38,675 nt of DNA, taken from NCBI GenBank assembly GCA_024638385.1, contig JAHEKJ010000021.1:1-38675 (forward strand), written 5' to 3'. This DNA comes from Gammaproteobacteria bacterium (lineage in GTDB: Bacteria > Pseudomonadota > Gammaproteobacteria > GCA-001735895). The notes under the pieces are model-generated. The model was not told the DNA's origin, ran no database searches, and saw only the letters and a program-made list of their open reading frames with translations. Made by a program: the position numbers and the translations under genes. Shown here in pieces: positions 2,588-38,675 of this stretch. Every line of letters begins with the position of its first letter. Position 1 is the first letter of the stretch.

Positions 2588-2615
2588 CGGCCGCAGGTGA
2601 CCTTTTCGACGTCGC

Positions 2616-4079
2616 TCAACGGGATATCCCGTCAACCAGCGCGCGCCCGATGCGCAGCACGCTGTCACGCAGGCCCTCGACGTGGTCGGCGCGGGTCGCG
2701 TGATTGAGGATGCAGACGCGCAGCACCGGCCGGCCGCGAATCTGCGTCGCCGACATCAGGTAATCGCCCTCGAGCTGGATGCGGTCGCGAATCTCGCTGT
2801 TGATTGCGTCGATGCGTTCGTCGTCGACGCCGGCAGGGCGGTAGCGGAAACACAGGATCGACAGTTGCGGCGCGACCACGAGTTCGAGTTCGTCCTCGGC
2901 TTCGATCAGCGCGGCGAGATACTCGGCGCATTCGACGTTGTGCAGCGCGTTGCGGCCGAGCCGGTCGAAGCCGTAGAAGCGAAACGCGAGGTAGAACGGC
3001 AGCCCGCGGCAGCGCCGCGACAGCTCGGGCGCGATATGAAAGAACATGTACTGTTCCGGCGTGTGGATGTCGTCGCCGGAGCGCAGGTAGTCCGGGCTGT
3101 CGTAAAACAGGTCGCGGGCCGGCTCGGCGTCGCGGTAGAGCAGCAGGCTGCCGGCGAGCGACTGGAAAAACCATTTGTGCAAATCCATGACCACCGAGTC
3201 GGCCAGCTCTATGCCGGCGTAGCGCGGGCGCAGCTCGGGAGACATCAGGCCGCCGCCGCCGAGCGCCGCATCGACGTGCAGCCAGACGCCGTGGCGCCGG
3301 CACAGCGCGCCGATTTCGGCGAGCGGATCGATCGCGCCGGTGTTGGTCGTGCCGGCCGACGCGACGACGCAGACGACCCTGGCGTGCTGCTCGAGTGCGG
3401 CCTCGAGACGGTCGGGCCGCAGGCGGAACTCGGCGTCGGTCTCGACCGCGACGACCTGGTCGCTGCCGAGCCCGAGCAGGATCGCGGCGCGGCGGATCGA
3501 AAAATGCGCCGCCGTCGAGCAGACGACGACCGGCCGCGCGTCGTTGGCAAACGCGGCCATACCGCGTTCCCGAAAATCGGGCCCGGCGGCCCGTGCCAGC
3601 GCCGTCGCGATGCCGCAGAGATTCGATATCGAGCCGCCGCTGAGGATGACGCCCTCGGCCGTGGCCGGGAAGTCAGCGAGCTCGGCGAGCCAGCGGATCA
3701 CGGTTTTCTCGATCGTCGTGCCGACCGGCGAAGACCAGTAGCCGCCGACGTTGGCGTTGATCGCCGCGACCATCGCGTGCGCGAGCGGATCGGTCGGCAA
3801 GCCGGACGGGGCGACCCAGCCGAAGAAGCCCGGATGGGTGTTGCGTCGCGGGTAGGCGTCGAATGCCTGCGTGATTTGTGCGGTCAGCGCTGCGAGCGGT
3901 TCGTCGCCTGCGGGCCAGCGATCGTCGATCAACGCGCGCACGTCGGCTTCGGTCGACGGGCGAACAATCGGCGAGCGCGGGCGTTGCGCAAACAGCGGCT
4001 CTAGCGCCGCGTCGAAATCGACGTTAAGCGCGTGAGTCAGGTCGTCGGCGGGGTCGAGCGCCGGCCGTTGCGCAGCCAT
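2616..4079 (-). CDS. PLP-dependent group II amino acid decarboxylase family protein
   Basis: A 487-residue cytosolic enzyme of the aromatic-L-amino-acid/glutamate decarboxylase fold (pyridoxal_deC family), of normal length. Visible features are THPGFFG near 81-87, the PLP-stacking His192 (AAHFS), Asp270 (HVDAA) that pairs with the pyridine nitrogen, and the Schiff-base Lys302 in LHKWFFQ. These are the full set of cofactor residues, so it should be active. The family converts an aromatic or acidic L-amino acid to its amine and CO2; the substrate cannot be fixed from the motifs. An AGAGGATC ribosome site lies a short distance before the ATG. The downstream DMT transporter suggests a decarboxylase/exporter pair. 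Confidence 0.88.
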   Translation of the reverse strand: MAAQRPALDPADDLTHALNVDFDAALEPLFAQRPRSPIVRPSTEADVRALIDDRWPAGDEPLAALTAQITQAFDAYPRRNTHPGFFGWVAPSGLPTDPLAHAMVAAINANVGGYWSSPVGTTIEKTVIRWLAELADFPATAEGVILSGGSISNLCGIATALARAAGPDFRERGMAAFANDARPVVVCSTAAHFSIRRAAILLGLGSDQVVAVETDAEFRLRPDRLEAALEQHARVVCVVASAGTTNTGAIDPLAEIGALCRRHGVWLHVDAALGGGGLMSPELRPRYAGIELADSVVMDLHKWFFQSLAGSLLLYRDAEPARDLFYDSPDYLRSGDDIHTPEQYMFFHIAPELSRRCRGLPFYLAFRFYGFDRLGRNALHNVECAEYLAALIEAEDELELVVAPQLSILCFRYRPAGVDDERIDAINSEIRDRIQLEGDYLMSATQIRGRPVLRVCILNHATRADHVEGLRDSVLRIGRALVDGISR

Positions 4080-7842: not shown

Positions 7843-8565
7843 TTACCAGGGCAGTTCGCTGCCGTCCCAGGCCCAGAAGCGACCGCTGTCGGCCGCTTCG
7901 AGCCCGGCGAGCAGCGTGACGAAGGCCTCGGCGGTGTAATTCGGGTCGAATAGCTGTTCGGGTGCGACGTTGCGCTGGAACGGTTGCGACAGCGCGGTAT
8001 CGTTGGTGCCGGGGTGCAGCGCCGCGACGCGGCCGCGCGGGTGGCTGTGCTTCCATTCGATGCTGAGGGTTTTCAGGGCCATGTTGAGGGCGGCTTTCGA
8101 GATCCGATAACTGTACCAGCCGCCGAGACGATTGTCGTCGATGCTGCCGACCCGCGCCGAAATCGCCGCCAGTAGCGGCGCCGGGCTGAGTTTCAGGGCC
8201 GCGTCGAAATGCTTGGCCAGCAGCAGCGTCGGCAGCGCGTTGACGCGAATACAGTGCAGCAGGAACTCTGGTTTCAGCATGCGCACGTTCTTCTCCGGGC
8301 CGGCGCCGTCGCCGTGCAGGAACCCGGCGCAGTTGACGATCCAGTCGACCCGGTCGGTTTCGCCCGCCCAGTCGGCTATCGCGTCCTCGTCGCGCAGGTC
8401 GAGCCGTCGCCATTGCAGGCGATCGTCGGCGAACGGCGGCTCGCTGCGGTGGTGAGTCGCCTCGATGCGCGCCTCCGGGTAAGCGTCGAGCAGCGCGCGC
8501 GCGAGCGCCGCGCCGATGCCGCCGCTACCGCCGGGCAGCAGGACTCGTTGCGGCGCGTCAGCCAT
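7843..8565 (-). CDS. Short-chain dehydrogenase/reductase (CsgA/C-factor-like)
   Basis: A 240-residue SDR with the glycine-rich GGSGGIG loop (12-18), NCAG (78-81), Ser136 and the catalytic pair Tyr153/Lys157 (YRISK). The overall pattern, including [21 protein letters not shown], resembles the C-factor-like cell-cell signalling/short SDR group often found in gammaproteobacteria. The substrate is unknown. Its ATG overlaps the end of the antiporter remnant by 8 nt and its stop lies 16 bases before the peroxidase gene, so it is mid-operon. Confidence 0.85.
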
Positions 8566-20715: not shown

Positions 20716-21699
20716 ATGGGCTCGACGCCGTACAACGCCACCGGCGATTACCAGCCGGCCACTACCATCGGATTGCCGGTGCTCTACGCGTGGCCGCCGC
20801 GCCCGCTGGCGGCGTTGCGCTACCTGCTCTACGACTTGCTGTTCCCGTGGGGATATTTTTTCTTCGCGCTGGCCTTCGTCACCTGGGAATACCTGACGCC
20901 GAGCCTCGCGACGATGGCCGTACTCGAGCCCGGCTGGATCGCGCTGCTGTGGCTGCGCAATGCCGGACTCCTGTGCCTGCTCGCCGGCGGGCTGCACTGG
21001 TGGTTGTACCTGCGCCGCAGTCAGCAGGGTGAATTCAAGTTTCACCGCCGCTGGCTAGCGACCGACGACGACAAGTTCCTGTGGCGCGACCAGGTGCGCG
21101 ACAACATGTTCTGGAGCCTGGTGTCCGGCGTGACCTTCTGGACCGCCTACGAGGCGACGACCTACTGGATCTACGCCAGCGGGTGGCTGCCGGTGGTCGA
21201 ATACGCCAACCCGCTTTACCACTTCGCGATGTTCTATGTCGTCATCGCGTGGTCGACCGCGCATTTCTATTTCGTCCACCGGTTGCTGCACTACGGCCCG
21301 ATTTATCGCGTCGCCCACGAGCTGCATCACCGCAACGTCAACACCGGTCCGTGGACCGGCATCTCGATGCATCCGCTCGAGCATTCGATTTATTTCTCGG
21401 TGTTCGTGCTGTGGTGGTTCGTGCCGGTGCATCCGATCGTCATTATCCTGACCGGATTCTTTCAGGGTCTTTCGCCAGCGATATCGCACTCGGGTTTCGA
21501 TTTCGTCAAGGCCGGCAGGCTGCGACTGTCGACCGGTGACTGGTATCACCAGCTGCATCACCAGTACTTCAACTTCAACTATGGCAACACGCCGACGCCG
21601 TTCGACAGGCTCTTCGGTAGCTGGCACGACGGCAGCCGGGCCTCGCTCGAGCGGCACCGGCAGCGGCAGCGCGCGCGGCGCAGGCAAGCCGCGAGCTGA
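20716..21699 (+). CDS. Fatty acid hydroxylase/sterol desaturase superfamily membrane protein (paralogue 1)
   Basis: A 327-residue integral membrane di-iron enzyme. About four to five hydrophobic helices surround the His clusters HRLLH (188-192), HELHH (201-205), HPLEH (219-223) and HQLHH (278-282), the set expected for the superfamily. Members hydroxylate or desaturate sterols, lipids or other hydrophobic molecules with O2. The open frame extends to 20521, but the promoter-like bases and protein pattern favour the ATG at 20716. It is followed after 131 bases by an aldehyde dehydrogenase, which could oxidise an aldehyde formed downstream of the hydroxylation. A close paralogue lies at 37136. 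Confidence 0.9.
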   Translation: MGSTPYNATGDYQPATTIGLPVLYAWPPRPLAALRYLLYDLLFPWGYFFFALAFVTWEYLTPSLATMAVLEPGWIALLWLRNAGLLCLLAGGLHWWLYLRRSQQGEFKFHRRWLATDDDKFLWRDQVRDNMFWSLVSGVTFWTAYEATTYWIYASGWLPVVEYANPLYHFAMFYVVIAWSTAHFYFVHRLLHYGPIYRVAHELHHRNVNTGPWTGISMHPLEHSIYFSVFVLWWFVPVHPIVIILTGFFQGLSPAISHSGFDFVKAGRLRLSTGDWYHQLHHQYFNFNYGNTPTPFDRLFGSWHDGSRASLERHRQRQRARRRQAAS

Positions 21700-29150: not shown

Positions 29151-29249
29151 GCCCGTGACCCTGGCGGCGGCGTCGATCCATCTTCCGGCGATTCGCCGGT
29201 GCGCTGCGGCCGACCGACGAACGATCCGGGCGGCCGGGTCGGGCGGCGC

Positions 29250-30797
29250 ATGACTGAACCGGGGTCCCGCGGTAAACGCCGGCGCCGCCGCAAGGCGGCG
29301 GGCGACGCCGCGAGGCGCGACGCCGATACTCGTCTGGGCGGTCTCGTCGGCGGTCGCTATCGACCACTCGATCCCGACGACTTACCGAAAATCGACGCCG
29401 CGGCGCGCGCGATCCTTGCCGACGTCGGCATGGCCGAAGCGCCGGAAATCGTCATCGCGCAGGTCGACGCCGCGGGCGGTCGTCTCGGCGACGACGGCCG
29501 GCTTCGATTCCCGCCCGGTCTGACCGAAAAAGCGCTCGCCGGACTCGCGCGCAATTTCACGCTCTGCGGTCAGGATCCGAATTACGATTTGAAACTCGGC
29601 GGCGCGCGCGTGCACGTCGGTTCCGGCGGCGCCGCGCCGATGATCCGCGACCTCGACAGCGGGCGCTATCGCGAATCGACGCTACGCGATCTCTACGACG
29701 CGGCGCGCCTGGTCGATTGCCTCGAGCATATCGACTTCTTCAGCCGCTCGTTGGTCGCGCGCGACATGCCGGACCTGGGTACGCTCGACGTCAATACCGC
29801 CTACGCGTGTCTCGCCGGCACGCGCAAGCACGTGTTGGCTGCCGCGTCGGAGGCCGCCAGCGTCGCCGAGATCGCGGAGATGTGTTACGCGATTGCGGGT
29901 TCGCGCGACGCGTTTCTCGCGCGGCCCTTCCTGTCGTTGAACTGCAATATCCCGGTGCCGCCGCTGCGCTTCGACCCCGAGTCCTGCGAGGTCGCCGCCG
30001 CGGCGGTACGCCACGGCATCCCGCTGCACGCGAACACCTTCGGCCAGATGGGTGCGTCGAGCCCGGTGACGCCGGCCGGCACGATCGCGCAAACCGTCGC
30101 CGAGACGCTCGCCGGCATGATCTTCGCGTGGCTCGTCGATCCGGCGGCGAAAGTGATTTTCGGTACGCGGCCGATGCTGACCGATCTGCGCACCGGCGCG
30201 ATGAGTGGCGGCAGCGCCGAAGGCGCCGTGGCGATGGCGGCGACCGCGCAGATGGCCAACTACTACGGCCTCGCCGGCTCGACCATCGCCGGCGCCACCG
30301 ACAGCAAGCTCGCCGATGCGCAGAGCGGCTACGAGAAGAGCCTGGCCGTCACCCTTGCGGCGCAGGCCGGCTCCAACCTCGTGACCCAGGCCTGCGGCAT
30401 GCAGGCGAGCCTGATGGGTTGCGCGCTCGAAAGCTACGTCATCGACAACGACATGCTTGGCGCGATCATGAAATCGCTCGCGCCGATCGAGGTCAGCGAC
30501 GAGACGCTCGCGCTCGCCGCGATCGACGAGGTCGCGCACGGCGAAGGGCATTTTCTCGGCCGCCCGGAAACGCTTGCGCGGATGCAGTCGGATTTCGTCT
30601 ATCCCGGGGTCGCCGACCGCCGCGGCATCGACGAATGGCAAGCCGACGGCGGCAAGGACATACGCGCGATCGCGCTCGAGCGCACGCGTGAACTGCTCGC
30701 GACGCACTATCCGCGGCACCTGTCCGCCGCGCTCGATACGCGCCTGCGCGAGCGCTTCGACATCCGCCTGCCGCGCTCCGCGATGGAGGCGGCGTGA
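29250..30797 (+). CDS. MttB/MtgB-family methyltransferase (non-pyrrolysine)
   Basis: A 515-residue protein of the trimethylamine methyltransferase superfamily. The frame has no internal amber codon, so it is the non-pyrrolysine type, like glycine betaine:corrinoid methyltransferases. The barrel segments GGAAPMIRDLDSG, LSLNCNIPVPPLRF and GTRPMLTDLRTGAMSGGSAE are family-like. The first 35 residues are basic and probably disordered. Related enzymes demethylate a quaternary amine; which one is open. No corrinoid protein gene is next to it. Its stop overlaps a PanE-like gene by 4 nt. Confidence 0.88.
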   Translation: MTEPGSRGKRRRRRKAAGDAARRDADTRLGGLVGGRYRPLDPDDLPKIDAAARAILADVGMAEAPEIVIAQVDAAGGRLGDDGRLRFPPGLTEKALAGLARNFTLCGQDPNYDLKLGGARVHVGSGGAAPMIRDLDSGRYRESTLRDLYDAARLVDCLEHIDFFSRSLVARDMPDLGTLDVNTAYACLAGTRKHVLAAASEAASVAEIAEMCYAIAGSRDAFLARPFLSLNCNIPVPPLRFDPESCEVAAAAVRHGIPLHANTFGQMGASSPVTPAGTIAQTVAETLAGMIFAWLVDPAAKVIFGTRPMLTDLRTGAMSGGSAEGAVAMAATAQMANYYGLAGSTIAGATDSKLADAQSGYEKSLAVTLAAQAGSNLVTQACGMQASLMGCALESYVIDNDMLGAIMKSLAPIEVSDETLALAAIDEVAHGEGHFLGRPETLARMQSDFVYPGVADRRGIDEWQADGGKDIRAIALERTRELLATHYPRHLSAALDTRLRERFDIRLPRSAMEAA

Positions 30798-35022: not shown

Positions 35023-35964
35023 ATGGTTGCGGTCAGCGAAAACGACTATGATCCGCGCGACCTGCGACGCGCCTTCGGCTGCTTCATGACCGGCGTCACG
35101 ATCGTCACGACCGTCGACGCCGGCGATGAACCCTGCGGCTTCACCGCCAACTCGTTCACGTCGGTATCGCTCGAGCCCCCGCTGGTTCTGGTCAATATCG
35201 CGCGCACCGCCTGGGGCTGCCCGATATTCACCGGCGCGCAGGGTTTCGCGGTCAACATCCTCGCCGGCAACCAGCGTGAGTTATCGAACCTGTTCGCGCG
35301 CGCCGGCGAGGACAAGTTCGCCCAGGTCGCCTGGTCGCCGGGGCCGGCCGGCTCGCCCATCATCGACGGGGTCGTCGCCTGGTTCGATTGCACGCTCTAC
35401 CAGCAGGTCGACGCCGGCGATCACGTCATCCTGATCGGCGAGGTCTCGCATTACCAGTACAACACGCATTCGCCGCTCGGATTCTGCCGCGGCGCCTACG
35501 TCAGCTCGGCGCTGTCGCCGCGCATGCTGCAACTTGTCACGTCGCCGGGCGTGCTCAGGGTCGGCGCGATCATCGAGTACGACGGCCGGATCCTGCTGGA
35601 GCGCGATCCGAAAAGCGGGCGCCTCGCGCTGCCGACCGCGGCCAGCGTCGGCGCCGCGGCGCGCGGCGACGGCCTGCTCGGCAAGCTCGCCGCGGCCGGC
35701 ATCGACGTCGACCTGCCGTTCATCTACGCCGCCTACGAGGCCGACGGTGCGCGCCACGTCTACTACCTCGGCGAGCTGCGCTCGGCGGAAGAGGCGCGAA
35801 CCTCCGGCGCGCTGCAGTTCTACGAATTCGACCTGATCACCTGGGAGGAGATCAACGACGCGCCGGTAATCTCGATGCTCGAACGCTATATCCGCGAAAA
35901 GAAGTACGGTAATTTCAGCCTCTATATCGGCGACCCGCAAACGGGCGAGACGCATCCGTTCTGA
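35023..35964 (+). CDS. Flavin reductase with C-terminal Nudix-like domain
   Basis: A 313-residue two-domain protein. Residues 1-165 are a flavin reductase-like domain (GVTIVTTVD, GFTANSFTSVSLEPPLVLVNI, the FAVNILAGNQRELSNLFA segment) that binds FMN or FAD and supplies reduced flavin. Residues 175-305 resemble the Nudix fold (VGAIIEYDGRILLERDPKS) but lack the GX5EX7REUXEE box, so hydrolase activity is doubtful; it may be a sensing or binding domain. It is the third gene of the GntR operon and probably provides reduced flavin to a monooxygenase elsewhere. Confidence 0.87.
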   Translation: MVAVSENDYDPRDLRRAFGCFMTGVTIVTTVDAGDEPCGFTANSFTSVSLEPPLVLVNIARTAWGCPIFTGAQGFAVNILAGNQRELSNLFARAGEDKFAQVAWSPGPAGSPIIDGVVAWFDCTLYQQVDAGDHVILIGEVSHYQYNTHSPLGFCRGAYVSSALSPRMLQLVTSPGVLRVGAIIEYDGRILLERDPKSGRLALPTAASVGAAARGDGLLGKLAAAGIDVDLPFIYAAYEADGARHVYYLGELRSAEEARTSGALQFYEFDLITWEEINDAPVISMLERYIREKKYGNFSLYIGDPQTGETHPF

Positions 35965-36007: not shown

Positions 36008-36955
36008 TCAATCGGCGTTGACGACGGTCGGCGTGACTCCGCTGGCGCCGTTGCCGGAATCCGCGAGGTAGTTCGCAACCTCATCGCGCAACCAGTCCCG
36101 AAACAACCGCAGCGCTTCATCCTGGCGCGAGTTACGGCTCCAGATCAGGTAGTATCCGTAGCCCTGCAAGCGAATATCGAAGGGTTCGACCAGCAGCCCC
36201 GCGTCGATTTCGGCCTGCACCAGCGGGTTGGCCAGCGCCAGGCCTTGACCGTCGACCGCCGACTGCACGCGGACATTCGGATCGACGATGACCGGCGCGT
36301 CGGGGGTGTGCGTCGCTTCGAGCCCGGCCGCCTGCAGCCATTGTGGCCAGTAATCGATATCTTCCTGGTCGCGCAGCAAGGTCTGGCGCAGTACGTCCTC
36401 GGGTCGAGCCAGGCCGTCCGCGCGCTCGAGTAGCGCAGGCGCGCAGACCATGAACATCGGCATTTCTATCAGCAGTTCCGATTCGCTGCCGGGAAAACGT
36501 CCGTCCCCCCAGCGAATCGCGAGGTCGACATTGTCGAGCGAGAAATTCGGATCGTTGACCGAATGCTGGATTTGCAGGGTGAAGCCGTGGTGCGAATTGA
36601 GGAACCTGCCGAGCCGCGACGAGAGCCAGCGGGTGACGAAGTAAGTGGTCACCGCGACGGTCAGACGCGCATCGCCCCGCTCGGGAAATATGCGGGCGAT
36701 TTCGTCGTCGAGTTCGGCGAACAGGCGAGATACGGCGCGAAACAGTGCCTTGCCCGCCGGCGTCAGTTCGACCTGGCGCGTGCGGCGATGGAACAGGGGG
36801 CTGCCGAAACCCGTTTCGAGTTGCCTGACCTGGTAGCTGATCGCCCCCTGCGACAGCGATAACTCGGCGGCGGCCAGGGTGAAACTGGAATGCCGCGCGG
36901 CGGCCTCGAAGGCGTGTAGTGCTTTGAGTGACGGGATCCTGCCGAATCGGCGCAT
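36008..36955 (-). CDS. LysR family transcriptional regulator (GcvA-like)
   Basis: A 315-residue LTTR with an N-terminal helix-turn-helix (SLKALHAFEAAARHSSFTLA, then AAELSLSQGAISYQV) and a periplasmic-binding-like effector domain (about 95-300) with the usual DLAIRWGDG segment. This start, opening with RFGRIPSLKALHAFE, is GcvA-like. It diverges from the second di-iron hydroxylase across an AT-rich region with a 10-bp direct repeat, so it most likely controls that operon and itself. The effector is unknown. Confidence 0.9.
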   Translation of the reverse strand: MRRFGRIPSLKALHAFEAAARHSSFTLAAAELSLSQGAISYQVRQLETGFGSPLFHRRTRQVELTPAGKALFRAVSRLFAELDDEIARIFPERGDARLTVAVTTYFVTRWLSSRLGRFLNSHHGFTLQIQHSVNDPNFSLDNVDLAIRWGDGRFPGSESELLIEMPMFMVCAPALLERADGLARPEDVLRQTLLRDQEDIDYWPQWLQAAGLEATHTPDAPVIVDPNVRVQSAVDGQGLALANPLVQAEIDAGLLVEPFDIRLQGYGYYLIWSRNSRQDEALRLFRDWLRDEVANYLADSGNGASGVTPTVVNAD

Positions 36956-36956
36956 A

Positions 36957-36991
36957 GATTAAATTATTTGATGTATTGACTAAATTATTTC
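36957..36991. promoter_or_regulatory. AT-rich direct repeat, likely LysR regulator site
   Basis: Two copies of TAAATTATTT (36960-36969 and 36981-36990) lie exactly 21 bases apart, two helical turns, inside GATTAAATTATTTG and GACTAAATTATTTC. The stretch is far more AT-rich than its surroundings and sits just before the LysR start. TTGACT (36976-36981) overlaps the second copy and could be a forward -35 element. Confidence 0.65.
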
Positions 36992-37087
36992 GGTTGTAAC
37001 ATGAATCGTGCCGACAATAAACTACTGCTTTAAATGGATATATCAGGTTTACCAGTATTTTCCAGTTGGTTACGCAGAGTCTAAAAA

Positions 37088-37149
37088 ACTGCTTCATGCA
37101 GGCAAGGCCCCGGTCTTTTCGACAGGCTTTCGGCGATGCCTGAAGCAGT
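37088..37149 (+). promoter_or_regulatory. Hairpin placing the hydroxylase start codon at a stem edge
   Basis: ACTGCTTCA (37088-37096) pairs with TGAAGCAGT (37141-37149), and GGC (37101-37103) with GCC (37138-37140), after a 4-base bulge. The start codon at 37136 sits at the top of this stem and has no ribosome site of its own. It may limit translation, or the true start may be the GTG at 37148. Confidence 0.35.
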
Positions 37150-38146
37150 GCTGGAAACTGCCCGCGGCGACCGCAAGCGGAAACCGGCCTGGCACTACAC
37201 TCCGCCGCTACCGCTGCGCGCGTCGCCTTACTTCAGCTGGCCGCCGCGGCCGTTTGCCTGCGCGAAATGGTTACTGCGCGGCTGGCTGCCGCTGTCGGAG
37301 CGCTCGATAATCCTGCTGCTTTCGATCCTGTCGTGGCTGTATTTCCACCCGGCGCTCGAGCGCTGCCGCGAATTCGCCCCCGACTGGATCGCGCAAATCT
37401 ACCTGCGCAACCTCGCGTTGATGTTTCTCGTCGCCGGTGGCCTGCACCTGTATTTCTACGTCTGGCGGCGCCAGGGCGACGAGCGCCGCTACGACGCGCG
37501 GCCGTTTCCCGAAAACAATCGCGTGTTCACGTTCAACTCGCAGGTGCGCGACAACATCTTCTGGTCCTGCGCCAGCGGCGTAACGATCTGGACTGCCTAC
37601 GAGGCGCTGATGATGTGGGCCCTGGCGAACGGTTACGCACCGATGCTCGACCTGCCGGGCGACTGGCCGTGGCTGGTGCTGATGATCCTGCTGCTGCCGG
37701 CCTGGGAAACTTTCCATTTTTTCCTGATTCATCGCTTGATCCACTGGCCACCACTGTACCGGCGCATACACTCGCTGCACCACCGCAACACCAACGTCGG
37801 ACCCTGGTCCGGCCTGTCGATGCACCCGGTCGAGCATCTGATCTACCTGAGCACGGTACTGATTCACTTCGTCGTGCCGGCCAGCCCATTGCTGATCATT
37901 TTCCACCTGCAATACTTCACGCTGTCGGCGGCGACGACCCACGCAGGTTATGAGGGCATCGCCGTCGGCGGCAAACTGCTATTGCCGCTCGGCACCTATC
38001 ACCACCAGCTGCATCATCGCTACTTCGAATGCAATTACGGCGGCCTCGAAATCCCGATGGATCGATGGACCGGCAATTTCCACGATGGCACGCCCGAATC
38101 GCACCAGCAGTTTCTCGCGCGACGCCGGCAGAAAGCGAATGCCTGA
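37136..38146 (+). CDS. Fatty acid hydroxylase/sterol desaturase superfamily membrane protein (paralogue 2)
   Basis: A 336-residue di-iron membrane enzyme, related to the 20716 protein: both share QVRDNxFWS and SGVTxWTAYEA. The His clusters are HRLIH (199-203), HSLHH (212-216), HPVEH (230-234) and HQLHH (290-294). The enzyme should hydroxylate or desaturate a lipid or other hydrophobic substrate with O2. Its last 8 bases overlap the PanB-like gene, so the two are coupled. The LysR gene upstream probably regulates it. The start is somewhat uncertain because no ribosome site is seen. Confidence 0.9.
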   Translation: MPEAVLETARGDRKRKPAWHYTPPLPLRASPYFSWPPRPFACAKWLLRGWLPLSERSIILLLSILSWLYFHPALERCREFAPDWIAQIYLRNLALMFLVAGGLHLYFYVWRRQGDERRYDARPFPENNRVFTFNSQVRDNIFWSCASGVTIWTAYEALMMWALANGYAPMLDLPGDWPWLVLMILLLPAWETFHFFLIHRLIHWPPLYRRIHSLHHRNTNVGPWSGLSMHPVEHLIYLSTVLIHFVVPASPLLIIFHLQYFTLSAATTHAGYEGIAVGGKLLLPLGTYHHQLHHRYFECNYGGLEIPMDRWTGNFHDGTPESHQQFLARRRQKANA

Positions 38147-38507
38147 ACTAACCGTCAAGGACTTGCTCGAGTTGAAGGGCGTGCGCCAGATCCCGTTCGT
38201 GCAGGTAACGCGCGGCGAAGAAGCAATCGCCGCGGCGATCGCCGGGATCGATATGATCGGTTCCGGGTTCCGCCCCGAGACGCGACACTTCCCGACCCTG
38301 GTGCCGGATTCCCACTTCCAGTTCGGCCTCGACTGGGGCCGGCAGGCGAACGCCGCGGAAGCGTTGCGCGAAGCGATGCAGGCAATGGAGGCCGGCGCGG
38401 AGTCGATTTACTGCGCGATGAGCCCGGCGGTAGAGCACGACGTATCGATCGAGCGGGATGAGTTCGATCGTTTCCTCGACTCGATAGATCCAGCGGGTGA
38501 AGCCTGA
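38139..38507 (+). CDS. Half-length PanB-like TIM-barrel protein
   Basis: A 122-residue protein. Residues 1-45 (TVKDLLELKG, IDMIGSGF) and 55-100 (LVPDSHFQFGLDWGR, AMEAGAESIYC) resemble the first half of ketopantoate hydroxymethyltransferase-like proteins, which are normally about 260 residues; the second half is missing. It overlaps the hydroxylase gene by 8 bases and its stop overlaps the dehydrogenase start (TGATG). The tight coupling argues that the short form is real rather than a broken gene. Related full-length enzymes use methylene-tetrahydrofolate; whether this does is unknown. Confidence 0.7.
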   Translation: MPELTVKDLLELKGVRQIPFVQVTRGEEAIAAAIAGIDMIGSGFRPETRHFPTLVPDSHFQFGLDWGRQANAAEALREAMQAMEAGAESIYCAMSPAVEHDVSIERDEFDRFLDSIDPAGEA

Positions 38508-38675
38508 TGCGGGACTCGGCTCGAGCCGTGATCATCGGTGGCGGTATCGGCGGCTTGTCGGCGCTCTACCACCTGACGCTCGAGGGCTGGACCGACGTGA
38601 TCCTGGTCGAGCGCGACGAGCTGACCTCGGGGACGACCTGGCATTCGGCGGCGCAATGTCCGAACCTGGCCTTCA
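38507..38675 (+). CDS. N-terminus of a sarcosine/dimethylglycine dehydrogenase-type FAD oxidoreductase (partial)
   Basis: The 56 codons seen hold the FAD-binding GGGIGGLSALYHL loop (about 11-23) and the TSGTTWHSAAQCPNLAF segment characteristic of sarcosine/dimethylglycine dehydrogenases that carry a C-terminal GcvT-like folate domain. The gene runs off the right edge. Such enzymes demethylate methylated glycines and pass the one-carbon unit to tetrahydrofolate, which fits the neighbouring PanB-like protein. Confidence 0.8.
   Translation, partial: MRDSARAVIIGGGIGGLSALYHLTLEGWTDVILVERDELTSGTTWHSAAQCPNLAF

Follow-up and report, generated by a model that had tools for sequence, protein, structure and literature searches.

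A membrane hydroxylase gene of the FA_hydroxylase/sterol desaturase family and a gene for a PanB-like protein form a real, recurrent two-gene unit, conserved across alpha- and gammaproteobacteria. In 30 loci drawn from a scan of one genome per species (84,980 species), the hydroxylase lay directly upstream of the PanB-like gene in 22 (21 whole, 1 remnant); the PanB-like gene stood without a hydroxylase beside it in 8. The unit is tentatively read as a catabolic demethylation module, in which a ferredoxin-dependent monooxygenase would pass its C1 product to folate through a PanB-derived enzyme; our confidence in this reading comes close to an even balance and falls slightly short of it. No description of the pair was found in open-licence titles and abstract openings among the matches listed, and the literature search returned no biochemistry of the hydroxylase or of the PanB-like enzyme.

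The window, that is, the whole stretch of DNA analysed, was one complete contig (C79, 38,675 bases) of a 4.25-Mb MAG in 232 contigs (reported completeness 91.14%, reported contamination 5.41%). Near its right edge, a divergent LysR gene faces the hydroxylase gene, the PanB-like ORF and the start of a gene of the dimethylglycine dehydrogenase (DMGDH) type (Table 1). All four were located where the first-pass annotation had put them, and the overlaps that it had described between the genes facing LysR were measured at 8 nt (hydroxylase/PanB-like) and 1 nt (PanB-like stop/DMGDH start).

Table 1. Coordinates of the unit in the window and of its continuation on contig C108.
Feature	Position	Strand	Evidence or remark
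LysR regulator, divergent, GcvA-like subfamily	36008..36955	-	PF03466/PF00126; NF008352 258 bits, under its 288 cut-off
LysR–hydroxylase intergenic region	36956..37135	.	presumed site of both promoters
Membrane hydroxylase, FA_hydroxylase/sterol desaturase family	37136..38146	+	PF04116, His motifs
PanB-like gene with in-frame internal deletion, 122 aa	38139..38507	+	alignment to full-length relatives
DMGDH-type gene, start	38507..38675	+	DAO, FAO_M, GCV_T, GCV_T_C; runs on to base 2370 of contig C108
OpuAC binding protein	contig C108 2541-3500		downstream of DMGDH
ABC ATPase	contig C108 3587-4621		downstream of OpuAC binding protein
Permease	contig C108 4621-6210		downstream of ATPase

Elsewhere on the same contig, an MTTB-family methyltransferase gene (29199-30797, E 3.3e-119) forms a single uninterrupted ORF. 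A flavin reductase gene (35023-35964), whose C-terminal half of ~150 aa follows the PF01613 match without a family match of its own, adjoins an alpha/beta hydrolase gene and a regulator that is GntR-like by eye.

From hydroxylase stop to PanB-like start, distances of -20 to +15 nt were measured in 23 of 25 rows, window included; the window and L037, its nearest relative, share a value of -8. The outliers were two distant pairs, L035 and L097, with 69 and 784 nt. A divergent LysR gene accompanies 21 of the 22 pair loci and is of two types, the window's type in 4 gammaproteobacterial loci and another in 17; the L037 gene, of the window's type, is split over two frames. The pair locus without a divergent LysR gene is L059 (Roseovarius marisflavi), where only the 3' end of the hydroxylase precedes the PanB-like gene (2600-3930), behind sequence that looks transposase-like by eye. 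At L035 (1-1455, G190 contig C25), a second hydroxylase/PanB-like pair is followed by a protein weakly resembling DmmA (dimethylamine monooxygenase), a match under the cut-off.

A hydroxylase tree was built from 46 rows (two being the same gene of the window's own genome), 28 with and 18 without a PanB-like gene. PanB adjacency required 9 changes on this tree, 8 of them forced by starred branches. None of 500 label shuffles came as low as 9 changes (mean 14.5); with the opposite label, 2 of 500 did. The 9 changes indicate that the coupling of hydroxylase and PanB-like gene recurs, and judged from this tree the link is clustered, yet has been gained or lost repeatedly. The DMGDH gene adjoined the pair in 0 of the 30 other loci, and its membership in a conserved trio was ruled out. 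The gene order described in the first-pass annotation is accordingly of two kinds: the three-gene order including DMGDH was unique to the window among the loci examined, and the LysR-hydroxylase-PanB-like part recurs widely. In L037, a sarcosine oxidase alpha gene lies upstream, ~2.3 kb from the LysR gene.

The window hydroxylase matched PF04116 (5.5e-19) and only this family at E up to 1. Its His motifs (H199xxxH203, H212xxHH216 and HH290xxHH294) were invariant in 21 of 21 aligned sequences. A PDB sequence search gave two unrelated matches only (E 0.57 and 0.74). The AF2 model was weak (mean pLDDT 72.7), and none of its 15 Foldseek matches reached E 0.001 or below. A second, diverged hydroxylase paralogue (~41% identity) without a PanB-like gene beside it was present in the window (20734-21693); another lies on C133, where a LysR gene and a TauD-like one were recognised nearby by eye.

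Full-length relatives of the PanB-like protein matched PF02548 (L021, 1.4e-38; L022, 5e-38), and the window ORF had no match. When the L037 protein was modelled with AF2 (mean pLDDT 84.1), PanB chains occupied the top 28 Foldseek ranks (TM 0.67-0.81). The likeness to PanB comprises the fold and the C-terminal sequence. Active-site residues, numbered on 1m3u, were compared in 45 PanB-like and 6 true PanB sequences; L052 (in-frame stop) and the broken L066 were left out. The Asp45 column falls in a gapped region (Asp in 6 of 45 PanB-like sequences), so that the residue test was confined to Asp84, Lys112 and Glu114, which we take to be the Mg/keto-acid handling residues of PanB. These three were found in 6/6 true PanB and in 0/45 PanB-like sequences. 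His136 was kept in 45/45 full-length PanB-like sequences and Glu181 in 44/45, with one Asp. In a tree of the same set, which reports long branches, PanB-like and true PanB proteins fell into separate clades with 100/100 support. The genome encodes a true PanB of its own on C27, next to an ORF identified by eye as PanC; one TGA was counted in the search match, but the 272-aa ORF was open when read. On the residue losses and the separate clade, a true PanB function was rejected for the family. Together with the fold and the genome's own PanB, they argue that the family is PanB-derived, is probably not a ketopantoate hydroxymethyltransferase and very probably does not make ketopantoate.

In the window, the PanB-like gene is shortened. 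The 122-aa ORF had no Pfam match at E up to 1 and a single, unrelated NCBIfam match (E 0.14). A PDB sequence search with the protein gave 7 matches, the best to a beta-mannosidase (E 0.11), and included two weak PanB matches (E 1.2 and 1.4). Its kinship with PanB, as proposed in the first-pass annotation, held good and is visible only via its full-length relatives (262-264 aa; PF02548 at 1.4e-38 for the best). Compared with 20 full-length proteins, the window copy retains residues 1 to ~96 and the last ~25, in frame, a net loss of 142 residues against the L037 protein (264 aa). The equivalents of His136 and Glu181 are absent, and most invariant columns of the family fall in the lost part. What had been annotated as a half-size component looks, from these alignments, like a ~264-aa PanB-like enzyme from which a net ~142 residues have been deleted in frame. 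This shortened copy is the least trustworthy part of the finding.

Among the 30 other loci, the PanB-like gene was of full length in 28, carried an in-frame stop in one (L052) and was broken by transposase sequence in one (L066). The scan patterns had been placed in the part that the window copy keeps, so other half-length copies could have been detected; no fetched locus had one, and a natural half-PanB as a form of the family was ruled out. In L066 (Granulosicoccus, 8001-8420), the PanB-like gene contains stops and runs into transposase sequence from residue ~96, near the cut point of the window copy. A search of 40 other genomes of the window organism's family at E 1e-20 found this PanB type intact in none; PanB-like homologues of 33-37% identity are present in six genomes of the same genus. 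The dN ratio of the kept part to the hydroxylase was 0.52-0.77 in 4 window comparisons, inside the range of 0.47-0.86 for 6 intact pairs; synonymous sites were close to saturated. By this measure the kept part seems to evolve no faster than intact pairs and gives no sign of decay, so the deletion would be recent, an assembly artefact or tolerated. A second gene of the MAG, a ferredoxin reductase behind a 2Fe-2S ferredoxin (contig C231 11388-11818, L080), is missing its middle (~residues 64-329) in frame, and this raises the likelihood that the assembly or a mixture of strains is the cause. The window's PanB-like gene may be defective, or its shortening may be an artefact of assembly.

The genes to the right of the window edge, recommended for reading in the first-pass annotation, were followed onto contig C108, which opens with an exact match to the window's last 121 bases; this 121-nt overlap was taken as one assembly path. 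The window holds only 56 codons of the DMGDH gene. Joined across C79 and C108, its ORF is in frame and comprises 805 aa, with the domain order DAO, FAO_M, GCV_T, GCV_T_C over the full length. The C108 part gave an end-to-end alignment with human DMGDH (5l46, E 5.7e-126), the four-domain order is identical, and the earlier call of a sarcosine/dimethylglycine dehydrogenase was right. The TWH motif aligns with human STWH. FAD is presumably attached through the His of this motif. The human system differs in that the window genome, whose enzyme is assigned from its sequence, holds several paralogues. These DMGDH-type genes lie on contigs C82, C167, C51 and C66 (31-54% identity) and suggest that methylated amines are widely used by this organism. 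Behind DMGDH, the OpuAC binding protein, ATPase and permease constitute a ProXVW-type, betaine-type transporter.

Plasmid relatives were opened for 5 of 40 listed PanB-like hits (631 records matched) and for 9 of 40 listed hydroxylase hits (120 records). In all 4 opened plasmid regions holding both genes (Mesorhizobium 131-2-1, M. amorphae, Mesorhizobium 131-2-5 and Bradyrhizobium sp. 4), a 2Fe-2S protein and an FAD reductase follow the pair. Close by in ten plasmid hydroxylase regions were a PanB-like gene (4), a ferredoxin-type gene (7) and a matching reductase gene (6). No ferredoxin or reductase was found in the window unit or in the first 20 kb of C108; candidates in the same genome are unlinked, on C107 and on C231, the latter with the internally deleted reductase. 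Near the same-genus PanB-like homologues, MTTB, a Rieske catalytic domain, an FMN oxidoreductase, an arginine-deiminase-family gene and MocD/MocE types were found. In the alphaproteobacterial MAGs L042 and L043, which are close to each other, a matching set of SBP, ATPase and permease genes lies within a few kb of the PanB-like gene, that of L043 showing 57, 69 and 53% identity to the window's. Sugar-type or unrelated neighbours were seen by eye at L040, L041, L046, L047 and L064, so the substrate would not always be an amine. The lipid or hydrophobic substrate first suggested was not borne out: the downstream transporter is ProXVW-type, and relatives adjoin sugar, inositol or amine genes.

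The membrane oxygenase, ferredoxin and FAD reductase seen in the plasmid relatives of the pair are also the components of MocDEF of rhizobia. By its title, Bahar 1998 (cited in PMC5132102) assigns mocDEF to rhizopine catabolism as a ferredoxin oxygenase complex, and passages on moc and rhizopine occur likewise in PMC10107442, PMC3538637 and PMC5789663. Rhizopine is given in such passages as 3-O-methyl-scyllo-inosamine. This compound is O-methylated, and demethylation would therefore be a natural role of mocDEF, on which the passages themselves are silent. PMC6341043 was rejected as a relevant moc paper, its passage concerning the mannopine moc genes, another system. The order MocD-MocE-FAD reductase-PanB-like was present in 4/4 opened rhizobial or Agrobacterium plasmid regions, two of which also carry PurU and one FolD, and the PanB-like homologues share 49-53% identity with the L021 protein. 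These regions are MocDEF-like and are not the proven rhizopine plasmid locus itself. Their MocD-type oxygenase is an FA_desaturase (PF00487 for that of L095), whereas the window oxygenase is PF04116; LacI is the adjoining regulator in 3 of the 4 regions, whereas the window unit has LysR and has neither ferredoxin nor FAD reductase adjoining.

Two further systems bear a partial likeness. For methylguanidine, PMC12508155 describes a hydroxylase, MgdH, with a separate lyase, MgdL, a two-gene logic of oxygenase and helper; MgdH is a 2-oxoglutarate oxygenase, in contrast to the membrane di-iron type here, and MgdL is likened by role alone. In the Filomicrobium methanesulfonate gene region, according to a passage of PMC4433239, LysR, gcvT and a PanB-annotated gene occur near a formaldehyde-forming oxygenase, and the PanB-annotated gene, beside gcvT, is called one for transfer of a C1 moiety. 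That oxygenase is a Rieske enzyme, not PF04116, and its PanB protein is likened by annotation alone.

The MocDEF-, PurU- and FolD-type neighbours of homologues, the DMGDH gene and the betaine-type transporter make demethylation with folate-linked C1 transfer the best reading, and to this extent the earlier proposal of oxidative N- or O-demethylation with capture of the C1 unit by folate stands. The anatomy of the genes, the conservation of the pair, the family memberships, the lost residues and the neighbouring genes are observed; for substrate, PanB-like reaction, electron route and regulation, we infer the following. A betaine-like methylated compound would enter by the ProXVW-type transporter, and LysR would induce the unit in response to it. 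The membrane di-iron hydroxylase would draw electrons from a ferredoxin and a ferredoxin reductase encoded elsewhere and hydroxylate an N- (or O-) methyl group, and the resulting hemiaminal or hemiacetal would free formaldehyde or pass it on. The PanB-like partner, a predicted TIM barrel without the Mg/keto-acid site but with the His136/Glu181 equivalents kept, would transfer the C1 unit to tetrahydrofolate. DMGDH would next remove another N-methyl oxidatively, likewise onto folate. Counting against this mechanism are the 8/30 PanB-like genes without hydroxylase, the 18/46 hydroxylase rows without a PanB-like gene and the missing catalytic half of the window's PanB-like gene. Given the ~142-residue deletion, the PanB-like step has in this MAG probably been lost, been taken over or dropped out of the assembly only.

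The PanB-like protein might instead be a folate-independent hydroxymethyl lyase. The hydroxylase would then form a stable hemiaminal or hemiacetal, and the PanB-like protein would accelerate its cleavage, as MgdL does with N-(hydroxymethyl)guanidine. This lyase reading differs from the folate reading only in the chemistry of the PanB-like partner, and we consider it unlikely, though well worth weighing. The MgdH/MgdL pairing of oxygenase and lyase, as described in PMC12508155, is a precedent; the family has lost its metal and keto-acid residues while His and Glu stay, and arginine-deiminase/dimethylargininase-family genes lie near PanB-like genes in L043 and L093 (Pfam) and in L042 and L094 (by eye). 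The PurU/FolD neighbours and the PanB ancestry, however, favour folate. PanB chemistry is reversible in principle, and with the tight hydroxylase/PanB-like pairing this would suit a C-demethylation, in which the hydroxylase makes CH2OH from a C-methyl branch and the PanB-like protein runs the PanB reaction in reverse, removing the hydroxymethyl group from a carbon adjacent to a carbonyl and placing it onto folate. Such a route appears very improbable, since the three residues presumed to handle Mg and keto acid are gone in 45/45 and the neighbour genes indicate N- and O-methyl compounds.

That the enzyme is an ordinary hydroxylase of lipids or sterols, with neighbours placed by chance and overlaps due to genome compaction only, is likewise improbable, if a shade less so. 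The Pfam family name, the paralogues without PanB-like genes in the same genome (20734-21693 and C133) and the solitary PanB-like genes of 8/30 loci would agree with it, but the pair is kept at 22/30 loci in alpha- and gammaproteobacteria, with repeated gains or losses. We give least credence to the view that the 122-aa protein is a new PanB-like component that functions at half size, and not the remnant of a deletion or an error of assembly. It is in frame, without a stop and with its overlaps preserved, and its dN ratio lies inside the intact-pair range at near-saturated synonymous sites; yet the form was found in 0/30 other loci, despite scan patterns that fall within the retained part, most family-invariant columns are absent from it, and the internally deleted C231 reductase hints at an assembly or strain-mixture cause.

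On a wider and slightly more tentative reading than that of the window unit itself, the widespread PanB-annotated family may consist of C1-handling partners of a new class, either formaldehyde-to-folate transferases or hydroxymethyl lyases, associated with at least three kinds of oxygenase, namely PF04116 hydroxylases, MocD-type desaturase-family enzymes and, as a lead from the literature, a Rieske methanesulfonate monooxygenase. With PF04116 hydroxylases it would form a system for aerobic demethylation that has gone unrecognised in marine and rhizobial bacteria. If this is true, many genes annotated as a "vitamin B5 enzyme" would encode enzymes that handle C1 units in demethylation pathways, and one group of "sterol desaturase" genes would be small-molecule demethylases. 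Current annotation would then hide a route by which marine and soil bacteria break down betaines and methyl ethers, and the formaldehyde hand-off of aerobic demethylation would become directly testable in a two-gene system.
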